Shown: positions 48,499 to 52,110 of the stretch, piece by piece
How the letters are laid out: each line of letters starts with the position of its first letter
How positions within the stretch are numbered: position 1 is the first letter of the stretch
Source: an uncultured Clostridia bacterium
GTDB taxonomy: Bacteria > Bacillota > Clostridia > Christensenellales > Aristaeellaceae
DNA: 64,000 nt
Reading direction: 5' to 3'
NCBI GenBank assembly: GCA_947166705.1
Contig: CAMVFE010000006.1
Span: 1 to 64,000, forward strand
Translations under genes and position numbers: made by a program
Notes under the pieces: model-generated
What the model was told of the DNA's origin: nothing
Databases searched by the model: none
What the model saw: the letters and a program-made list of their open reading frames with translations, nothing else

Positions 48499-48625
48499 AT
48501 CAGGTTTTTATTTATCTGACACGGCAACAGTGACTAAACGTACGGCATAATGCGCCCGGACGCGCCCGGAGGGCGGCAAAATGTGGCAGTCAAATAGCAA
48601 ATTACTACCGTTTTACTACTTTTGG
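48499..48625 (+). repeat. Dispersed repeat element, copy A (with paired TACTACC boxes)
   Basis: ..TTTATTTATCTGaCACGGcAACAGT..GGCAAAA..GGCA..ATTACTACCGTTTTACTACTTTTGG; aligns to copy B at 51925. Confidence 0.75.
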
Positions 48626-48932
48626 TGAAATTATAGCGAGCAGATTGATATCTGTTCATTGCTGCTCCGTAACTTCATTCATTTTATAGTTACGGAGAAA
48701 TAATCAATTGATTTTTGACAAATTTGTGAACAATTATCCTGTCAGCGTTGATCTTGGGTCAATGGTTGATCAGATGGATGAATTAAAGAAATTTCCTGAA
48801 ATCCATATATCTTAAATATCTGCTTTAAAAAAATGCTGACTTTTGAAAAATCTGAAAGTAAAATAACAGCATGCGATCACCCCGTTTATAGATGCAGTGG
48901 CGGTTTTGCGATTTTTATTCGGAGATGAGCCT

Positions 48933-49295
48933 ATGATTTTCAGAGAACGCTGCATGGAACAGATCAGGCCTTTCTACGAGAGCGATTTGATCAAAATCAT
49001 AACAGGAATCAAAAGATGCGGTAAATCTGTGATCCTCAGGCAGATTATGAGCGAAATTGAAAAAGGCGGAAAGCGCTGCCTGTTTCTTGATTCTGATCTC
49101 AGGCCTGTAGCCGCCAGGATACCGGATGCCGACGCACTGATTGCCTGTGTGAATGAATACCTGGGCAATGACAAGCTTTACGTTTTCCCTGGATGAGATA
49201 CAAAATGTGGATGGCTGGAATGACGCGGTAAGGACTCTTCGCCTGTACAATACGTCCGTTTTTATCACGGGCAGCTATTCAGAAACGCACCAGGG
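48933..49295 (+). pseudogene. DUF4143-type AAA ATPase, frameshifted and 3'-truncated
   Basis: IITGIKRCGKSVILRQIMSEIEKGG..NDKLYVF / LDEIQNVDGWNDAVRTLRLYNTSVFITGSYSE; one extra C in TTTTCCCTGGAT (49181-49192) breaks YVFLDEIQ. Confidence 0.88.
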
Positions 49296-49315
49296 CCTTT
49301 TAATCATGGCATGCA

Positions 49316-49377
49316 TTTGTCCTGCAAGAAGGACAAATATAACGCATTACTGTCCTGCACACTGGACAAATGAAACG
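49316..49377 (+). promoter_or_regulatory. Two tandem inverted-repeat boxes upstream of the AAA ATPase
   Basis: TTTGTCCT-gcaaga-AGGACAAATATAACG and TGTCC-tgcacact-GGACAAATGAAACG. Confidence 0.7.
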
Positions 49378-49410
49378 TGATATTGTATTATATGCATGGA
49401 GGTGATCGCG

Positions 49411-50685
49411 GTGAATCACAGCTTGCTGAAAAGGGTTATAACGGATCAGCATAAAGTCATCCAGGAGAGCAGGATATGCCGGCGGCCTTACACATTTGAA
49501 AAGAATGGCAATTATGTTCTTACCGGGATCAGAAGAGCCGGAAAATCCATGCTGCTGTATGGAATCGTTCAGGATCTGATTGCAGATGGGATTAGCTGGG
49601 ATCAGATTATTTATATCAATTTTGAAGATGAACGACTGTCTGAGTTTTCTCTGGAAGATTTTAACGATATTGTCGCTGTGCAGAGCGAAATGAGCAGCCA
49701 AAGGGGATATTATTTTTTTGATGAAATCCAGAACATCCAGGGGTGGGAGAAATTTGCCAGGAGAATGGCAGATAGTAAAGAACGTGTCTATATTACCGGA
49801 AGTAACGCAAAAATGCTCAGCAGAGAAATCGAAACAACGCTTGGAGGACGATTCCTTGAAAAATATGTTACTCCGTATAGCTTCGGAGAATATCTGACTG
49901 CACTGCAGATTCCTCATCAGTTATCCGATATGACCGGTACAAAAACAAGAGGCAGGATCGATTCAGCGCTCCAGCATTATATGGAGGAAGGAGGCCTTCC
50001 GGAGTCTTTGATGTATATCTCGAAAAGGGAATATCTCAGTACAGTTCTGCAGAAAATAGTTTTGGGCGATATTGTTTCCCGTAACAATTTAAAAAATGAT
50101 TATACGCTGAAAGTACTGATTAAAAAGGTTGCCGAGACAATATGCAATGAAGTTTCTTATTCTAAATTGCATGGCGCGCTGAAGAGAATTGGTCTCAGCA
50201 CAGGAAAAGATACAGTAATTGACTATATCTCTTATGCAAAAGAAGCCTTTTTACTGTTTACCATACAAAATGGCTTCTCGGCGTTTAGCGATCGCGAAAG
50301 CACACCAAAGTATTATTTCGAGGACAATGGCCTGTTGAATCTGTTTTTGTTCGAAAAATTGGGTATCTTGCTTGAAAACCTTGTAGCATCAGCGCTGCAC
50401 CGCAGATATGGGGATCAGGTATTCTTTATGAAGTCCCCCAAAACAGGAATTGATGTGGACTTTTACATACCGGAACAGGCAACTGCAATTCAGGTATGCG
50501 TAGAGGTGAATGATTCATCCTTTACTCGTGAAACAGAAAACCTGGTAAAGCTGCAGAAGAATCTGCCGGGTGTCCGTAAGCTGATCATTGTGAACCTGGA
50601 GAGCAATACTGCTCTGGAAACAGCAGGGACTACGATTCGTGTTATTCCCGCCACAGAGTTCTTATTATCAGATCTTTGCACATGA
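49411..50685 (+). CDS. ATP-binding protein, AAA + DUF4143 domains
   Basis: YVLTGIRRAGKSMLLYGIV; YYFFDEIQNIQGWEKFARRMAD; VYITGSNAKMLSREIETTLGGRFLEKYVTPYSFGEYL. GTG start after GGAGGTGATCGCG. Confidence 0.93.
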   Translation: MNHSLLKRVITDQHKVIQESRICRRPYTFEKNGNYVLTGIRRAGKSMLLYGIVQDLIADGISWDQIIYINFEDERLSEFSLEDFNDIVAVQSEMSSQRGYYFFDEIQNIQGWEKFARRMADSKERVYITGSNAKMLSREIETTLGGRFLEKYVTPYSFGEYLTALQIPHQLSDMTGTKTRGRIDSALQHYMEEGGLPESLMYISKREYLSTVLQKIVLGDIVSRNNLKNDYTLKVLIKKVAETICNEVSYSKLHGALKRIGLSTGKDTVIDYISYAKEAFLLFTIQNGFSAFSDRESTPKYYFEDNGLLNLFLFEKLGILLENLVASALHRRYGDQVFFMKSPKTGIDVDFYIPEQATAIQVCVEVNDSSFTRETENLVKLQKNLPGVRKLIIVNLESNTALETAGTTIRVIPATEFLLSDLCT

Positions 50686-50691
50686 AGGATT

Positions 50692-51669
50692 TTGATTTCA
50701 GTACGGCTTATGCTGGTTTTCAAATGGAGAAATCAATGCGGATGGGGCACAGCGTATCGTGGGGGAATGATACTTGCCTGGATGAGCAGGACGCGTTTAC
50801 CATCTGATTTCAGGTGTTGTAATTATCACGGAATAGTATCTTATGTAACAAAGGGAAGGGAGACAGTAGCTTTATCACAAGAACAGTACAGCCCGAGCAT
50901 AACCTGGATTGGAGATGAGACTGTGCATCGGATAACAGAACTTCCGGCATGGGAAAGATTGTTTAAGCGGATTGTCTGGGCTCAGATTGGTGACCTCAAA
51001 GGGCTTTCCATTCTTGACTTTGGAAGCGGGGAGGGCATCACTGCTGATCATTATGCAGAAAACAATTCTGTGACAGCCGTTGAACCTTCAGAAGAAATGC
51101 TTTCTTCTGCATGGAAAGATCATGAGTACAAACAGATTATCGGTGACGTTTCTGTGCTCAGCGAGTATGATGATCATACATTCGACTTCATTATCTGCCA
51201 CAATGTATTGGAATACATTGATGATAAACAGCGTACAGTAAACGAACTGGCGCGGGTGCTGAAGCAAGGCGGCAGACTTTCAATTGTCAAGCATAATCGC
51301 GCGGGGCGTGTGATGCAGATGGCGGTACTGCTTGACGATTTTGAAAAGGCGAATGCTCTGCTTGACGGAAAAAACAGTACTGCTTCAAAGTTTGGATCAA
51401 TTCGATATTACGAAGATCAGGACATTTCAGAATGGGATAGAAGGCTTAAACTGGTCGATTCCTATGGGATCCGTACATTCTGGGATCTACAACAGAAGCA
51501 GGAGAAGCATGATCAGGAGGAATGGCAGGAGCGCATGATACAGCTTGAGATGCGCGTATCTCAGATGGACGATTATCGAAGGATTGCTTTCTTTCATCAC
51601 CTGATATTCACAAAAGAGGAAGTGCGGATGCGAAACCGCGGGAATTACATGGACGTTGAAACCGCATAA
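50692..51669 (+). CDS. Class I SAM-dependent methyltransferase (start uncertain)
   Basis: GLSILDFGSGEGITADHYAENNSVTAVEPSEEML; DFIICHNVLEYIDDKQRTVNELARVLKQGGRLSIVKHN. Confidence 0.9.
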   Translation: MISVRLMLVFKWRNQCGWGTAYRGGMILAWMSRTRLPSDFRCCNYHGIVSYVTKGRETVALSQEQYSPSITWIGDETVHRITELPAWERLFKRIVWAQIGDLKGLSILDFGSGEGITADHYAENNSVTAVEPSEEMLSSAWKDHEYKQIIGDVSVLSEYDDHTFDFIICHNVLEYIDDKQRTVNELARVLKQGGRLSIVKHNRAGRVMQMAVLLDDFEKANALLDGKNSTASKFGSIRYYEDQDISEWDRRLKLVDSYGIRTFWDLQQKQEKHDQEEWQERMIQLEMRVSQMDDYRRIAFFHHLIFTKEEVRMRNRGNYMDVETA

Positions 51670-51756
51670 GCCCTCGGCTATAATGATGTCTGGAGACCAA
51701 GAAAGGAAGCGTAAAGGGTGGAAGATGTATTCGAACTTTCAAAGTTTGATTTCGAG

Positions 51757-51783
51757 CGGTTTTACTACGATTTTACTACTTTT
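51757..51783 (+). repeat. Paired TTTTACTAC boxes (11-bp period)
   Basis: GGTTTTACTACGATTTTACTACTTTT. Confidence 0.65.
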
Positions 51784-51924
51784 CATGGCCCCGATAAGTC
51801 ACAAAAAGCAACGAAAAGCAAGGTATGAATTTTGACCATCGCGAAAATGACCAGATACGACATGCCCCGGGAGTGGCCTAAACGTTGCTTTTCGTAGCCG
51901 GAAGGAGCTTCTTGTAACATTGAC

Positions 51925-52049
51925 TAAGATTTTATTTATCTGCCACGGGAACAGTCCCTACTCCATCGCAGAACGCGGCGTTGTCGGGCAAAACGCGGCA
52001 AATCGCGGCAGTTGATCGAGAAGCTGACTACCGTTTTACTACCATTGGA
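51925..52049 (+). repeat. Dispersed repeat element, copy B (with paired TACTACC boxes)
   Basis: TTTATTTATCTGcCACGGgAACAGT..GGGCAAAACGCGGCA..CTGACTACCGTTTTACTACCATTGG. Confidence 0.75.
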
Positions 52050-52084
52050 CAGAGTAACGACGGAGAATGTATGGAACAGGAAAA

Positions 52085-52110
52085 ATGTACTACCATTTTA
52101 CTACCATGGA
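52085..52110 (+). repeat. Paired TACTACC boxes (11-bp period)
   Basis: ATGTACTACCATTTTACTACCATGGA. Confidence 0.65.

Follow-up and report, generated by a model that had tools for sequence, protein, structure and literature searches.

Paired boxes in the window and in related genomes

What do four pairs of short direct repeats mark in a stretch of clostridial DNA that appears to carry no integrase gene? The window, i.e. the whole 64-kb stretch analysed here, lies on contig C6 of a 2.18-Mb genome (73 contigs, 71% complete) and contains paired TTTACTAC boxes with an 11-bp period at 48603, 51763, 52026, and 52088, all on the + strand. A first-pass annotation had picked out these four pairs from the letters alone and proposed that they are arm-type sites of a Tn916-like integrase, left as orphan att scars of ICE-like elements. 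All four pairs are present on a single strand, and a search for TACTACCRTTTTACTAC with up to three mismatches returned exactly four matches in the 64 kb, with 0.03 expected and none of 100 shuffled sequences reaching four. The annotation overlooked a 45-bp repeat that starts at 48492 and recurs at 51916, in both places a copy of the 5′ end of ptp, the gene for a low-molecular-weight protein tyrosine phosphatase (LMW-PTP).

A genome-wide search with up to two mismatches, which the annotation had suggested as a check, added a single TACTACCRTTTTACTAC copy at C39:14275, immediately upstream of an intact ptp gene. The box pattern was detected in 11 of 18 same-genus relatives versus none in the control. 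In the other genera of the family, it gave four matches and the reversed control matched in six genomes, so that these matches represent background and the enrichment is confined to the genus level.

A ptp-derived core at fixed distances from the boxes

Around exact box copies in same-genus genomes, the short stretch preceding the box resembles the LMW-PTP start (AAGATTTTATTTATCTGCCACGGGAACAGT), and the accessory genes beyond the box vary between genomes. This second motif, at a fixed distance from the boxes, corresponds to the first ~27 bp of ptp. Scanning for this core revealed two arrangements: left ends consist of the core, ~98 bp, and a box pair, and right ends of a box pair, 166 bp (sometimes 176 bp), and the core. 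In the window, the core at 48505 and the box at 48603 form a left end, the box at 51763 and the core at 51929 form a right end, and the latter core, combined with the box at 52026, opens another unit as its left end. These cores correspond to the 45-bp repeats described above, which are absent from all shuffles, and the core-98-arm and arm-166-core geometry recurs in relatives. Of 45 same-genus genomes, 22 matched a position model of the left end and 37 matched that of the right end, although some of the 37 may contain ptp alone because the right-end model takes in the ptp start. Box pairs with no adjoining core occur at G018:C39:38853 (L026:8854) and in G009:C30 (L032:8912); the G018 pair looks hybrid, with right-type sequence upstream and left-type sequence downstream, as though it arose by recombination between ends at the arms.

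Read in this way, the window would contain a complete unit lacking an integrase, followed by the left portion of another that was accreted at the first unit's right core, with the following features:

48492..48536, + strand: putative left core (attL), degenerate copy of the ptp 5′ end, GTGATCAGGTTTTTATTTATCTGACACGGCAACAGTGACTA, aligned with 11 other left ends
48602..48626, + strand: putative left arm pair, ATTACTACCGTTTTACTACTTTTGG, 98 bp from core start to box
48897..49196, + strand: truncated AAA_14 ATPase ORF, 99 aa, degraded paralogue (PF13173, E 6e-6)
49396..50685, + strand: AAA_14/DUF4143 ATPase, matching the PADLOC candidate defence family PDC-S01
50692..51669, + strand: SAM-dependent methyltransferase, with similarity to relatives starting at 50924
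51759..51783, + strand: putative right arm pair, GTTTTACTACGATTTTACTACTTTT, 166 bp before the core
51916..51960, + strand: core, putative attR of element 1 and attL of element 2, TTGACTAAGATTTTATTTATCTGCCACGGGAACAGT, with RBS-like GGAAGGAGC upstream
52025..52048, + strand: putative left arm pair of element 2, type-B flank CATTGG, 97 bp after the core start
52086..52110, + strand: second putative arm pair of element 2, 62 bp further, resembling type-B right arms TACTACCATTTGACTACCAT
52445..53554, + strand: ORF6N-domain gene, matching the PADLOC candidate defence family PDC-S05
53635..53655, no strand: right edge of the island, where similarity to the conserved sigma-factor locus of four relatives begins

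Element 1 is 3.4 kb long, lacks an integrase, and is delimited by cores and boxes at 48492–51960, with the boxes at both ends (48603 and 51763) in the same + orientation. The crossover of its attL presumably lies in CACGGCAACA. Between its right arm and core, at 51808–51898, an inverted repeat (GCAACGAAAAGCAAGGT / ACGTTGCTTTTCGTAGC, 88% complementary) is possibly an extra recombination or regulatory site. Element 2 begins at 51916 and carries the ORF6N gene. It has no core or arm site at the right edge (53635–53655) and its right end is therefore missing.

The phosphatase gene as the predicted integration target

PF01451 matches were found in 35 of the 45 genus genomes. Several genomes (e.g. 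G002, G044, G018, G038, and contig C39 of the window's own genome) have boxes upstream of ptp on the same contig and strand. The ptp start is box-free in G035 and in the one-contig genome G022, where it is preceded by a gene that reads as M24-peptidase-like. In G001, the same M24-peptidase-like flank runs into TGCCACGGGAACA and then into element sequence (...gTGACGAAAAAC...), and on another contig of this draft genome, which has attL and attR on separate contigs, the ptp body follows element sequence that includes a ribosome site and a start codon of its own. Comparison of the empty loci of G035 and G022 with the filled locus of G001 places the crossover in the catalytic-loop codons I-C-H-G-N-I-C. 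The left junction soon gains a stop codon, with the consensus H-G-N-S-D-stop.

These junctions suggest that the cognate integrase group takes the LMW-PTP 5′ end as attB and recombines in the catalytic-loop codons. At the left end, the original promoter would remain together with the start codon and the codons after it, terminated by the stop, and the right end would equip ptp with a new ribosome site, start codon, and initial codons; as the replacement start comes from the element's right end, the phosphatase would remain intact. Likewise, dusA islands provide a new 5′ end to their target, and their outer boundary is marked by the native 5′ end that they displaced (PMC4482086). The elements described here would work in a similar manner through 5′-end replacement, but are not members of this group, as they differ in target gene (ptp), bacterial group, and integrase (PF02920), and their arms are of the Tn916 type.

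Empty sites in relatives, the search for which had also been suggested in the first-pass annotation, were thus found for ptp in G035 and G022, but none was found for the array in the window, where the left-flank gene is poorly conserved and the right-flank homology starts at 53635–53653 without an att site. The sigma-factor locus forming the right flank of the window is far from ptp in complete relatives, indicating that the array is probably located at a secondary or rearranged locus. The intact ptp of the window's genome is on C39 and the array on C6; alternatively, these contigs may be joined in a way hidden by the assembly.

An ftsH-carrying integrase-less element at a non-ptp site was observed at L030 (G022:C1:553909-557875) and also in G007:C48. 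The inferred host site of the G022 insertion, ACATGGGGATATCTGC, resembles the ptp core. An exact empty site for this insertion was not found; G035 is without the element and differs in ~120 bp around the point, so that the comparison supports only presence versus absence of the G022 element.

Cognate integrases and kinship to Tn916

As anticipated in the first-pass annotation, no integrase is encoded in the window: the PF00589 profile gave no match on contig C6, and tblastn revealed no integrase remnant. Co-location with tyrosine recombinases, which it had suggested testing, was found elsewhere: an intact tyrosine recombinase adjoins ptp with the same box arrangement in several genomes, including on the genome's own contig C39. 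These ptp-linked integrases, located beside the site in relatives and on C39 and not inside the window, carry PF00589 and, with E values as low as 3e-30, PF02920 ("DNA binding domain of tn916 integrase"); their motif is CRHT. Their N-terminal 67 residues match the Tn916 Int N-terminal domain structures 1bb8 and 1b69/1tn9 (E 1e-20 and 4e-19), and the remainder matches the Int protein of PDB 6emy/6en0 (E 4e-75), which we take to be Tn1549 Int. They are approximately 40–46% identical to Tn916/Tn1549-type relatives, with which they share the combination of a PF02920 arm-binding domain and the tyrosine recombinase domain seen in 6emy/6en0.

The boxes themselves point in the same direction. On pCF10, a Tn916-type element has paired TTTACTAC near both ends: its left-end pair reads TTTACTACTAATTTACTAC and its right-end pair, 14 bp past int, reads TTTACTACTTATTTACCAC; both share one strand and an 11-bp period. 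For integrases of 39–50% identity from IMG/VR and the class Clostridia, a box pair follows int within 300 bp at 18 of 21 loci, against 0.00 expected from shuffles. Together, these observations make the Tn916 core named in the annotation a good lead. The likeness to Tn916/Tn1549 comprises the GTAGTAAA word, a direct pair with a spacing of 11–12 bp, the same orientation at both ends, and a right arm just after int. In contrast to Tn916, which integrates with low specificity (PMC4701971), the ptp-linked group uses one gene start.

A different reading is that the boxes are transcription-factor operators, for example upstream of ptp, and that their link to mobile DNA is incidental. Indeed, right-end boxes precede the ptp start codons by 150–176 bp, which would suit a regulatory site. 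However, boxes also occur at left ends within elements, away from any ptp start; the two ends of Tn916 carry them too, as do 18 of the 21 loci of the 39–50% identity bin in the 300 bp following int, and the empty ptp loci of G035 and G022 lack them, which makes the operator reading very improbable.

We therefore consider it highly likely (probability of about 0.9) that the boxes are arm sites and that the window holds decayed, tandemly accreted elements, similar to cis-mobilisable elements (CIMEs), of a ptp-targeting Tn916-type integrase group. This reading draws on the sequences of boxes, cores, cognate integrases, and empty and filled ptp loci, on the end geometry, and on recurrence among genomes. 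Speaking against it are the lack of an integrase in the window, the intact ptp on a different contig, the missing right end of element 2, the lack of an empty site for the array, and the distance between the sigma-factor locus and ptp in complete relatives. A Tn916-family tyrosine integrase would bind the four box pairs as arm-type sites; both this binding and the strand exchange at the cores are inferred. The proposal of Tn916-like arm sites in the first-pass annotation gains good support from the PF02920 integrases, the Tn916 ends, and the ptp-bounded ends, and that of orphan att scars from the position of the window pairs at ends bounded by ptp-derived cores. The motifs are not distributed at random away from integrases and element boundaries, a pattern that the annotation had named as speaking against it.

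Integrase-less units and their cargo

CIMEs keep attL and attR, lack integrase and transfer genes, and can accrete in tandem with shared att sites, as described for the ICESt1 type (PMC5704250). The elements in the window resemble them in their retained att ends, the lack of integrase and transfer genes, and the tandem arrangement with shared att sites, but differ in target (ptp 5′ end), integrase group, and the very small size of such units (2–12 kb). Of the two, only element 1 retains both attL and attR, element 2 being without its right end.

Among the genus genomes, 11 units have both ends on one contig and range from 2.1 to 12 kb. None of them encodes an intact integrase, a count biased by the tendency of longer integrase-bearing units to run off contigs. 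Five of the 11 retain a 20–97 aa integrase C-terminus beside the right arm, which indicates decay of integrase-bearing parents, i.e. CIMEs. The small elements might alternatively be true, normally integrase-less cassettes moved in trans into an array by a resident integrase, similar to integron cassettes. The absence of intact integrases from all two-ended units would fit this scenario, as would the intact integrase on contig C39 and a ~3.3-kb ftsH unit, 95% identical between a ptp site in G002 and a non-ptp site in G022. Yet the C-terminal remnants fit decayed parents, long integrase-bearing elements running off MAG contigs bias the ascertainment, and the right end of the G022 unit is mosaic. 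We thus regard a cassette system as unlikely, and while integron cassettes rely on IntI and folded attC sites, the cognate integrases here are of the PF02920 type. Also for decayed CIME-like elements, mobilisation in trans of those in the window by the intact integrase on C39 of the same genome is conceivable in principle.

Most of the evidence comes from MAGs and several ends lie at contig borders, raising the question of whether mobile repeats at element ends were misjoined during assembly or binning. As the same architecture is found in the one- or two-contig genomes G002, G022, and G044, we consider such an artefact most unlikely.

The cargo of the units varies. In the window, the PDC-S01 and PDC-S05 matches suggest candidate anti-phage genes, whose defence function is predicted from these matches. 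The truncated AAA_14 ORF just upstream of the intact AAA_14/DUF4143 gene suggests repeated gain of this family. In two other species (G009 and G017), methyltransferase DNA 93–96% identical to that of element 1 is directly joined to the same element left end, so that the AAA_14 block (~48660–50923) is either extra in the window or was lost in G009 and G017. Other units carry a type I restriction enzyme, YitT, or an S66 peptidase. An integrase-bearing ptp element in G039 (L083:7121-10320) encodes an AAA_5-domain ATPase with restriction-type PADLOC matches; the neighbouring gene, without a database match, is suspected from reading to be McrC-like, and this element is thus suspected to also hold defence cargo.

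Breadth across Clostridia and implications

In many Clostridia, integrases at 53–62% identity also adjoin ptp in the same orientation (L150–L155, L158, L165, L207, and L217), with the ptp motif beginning 164–248 bp downstream of the aligned integrase end. The arm words at these loci differ (TTTACACC, TTTACGAC, TTTACCAC, TTTATACC, TTTAACCC, and TTTGCACC). One inverted plus two direct arm copies were found at 23 of 85 loci versus 0.5 expected over all classes. Tentatively, and with the odds still against the full proposal, Tn916-type integrases across Clostridia may share the ptp catalytic-loop landing site, having changed their arm words (TTTACTAC, TTTACACC, TTTACCAC, TTTATACC, TTTGCACC, TTTAACCC, and others) and kept the inverted-plus-two-direct layout, with small integrase-less defence elements forming a cassette pool, similar to that of integrons, that is shuttled in trans among ptp and sites resembling it.

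CIMEs, accretion, 5′-end-replacing islands, and Tn916 arms are each already known; in the open-access literature, we found no report of ptp as an integration site or of the present combination. The core and arm spacing provides a sequence rule for locating the ends of many small mobile units without an integrase in Clostridia of the gut and rumen; such units lack recognisable mobility genes and are easily overlooked, and some carry candidate defence genes. PF02920 integrases that share one target gene but differ in arm words also form a natural series, useful for studying how arm-site specificity changes. Finally, with attB located in catalytic-loop codons of the phosphatase, conservation of this loop would keep the landing site available.
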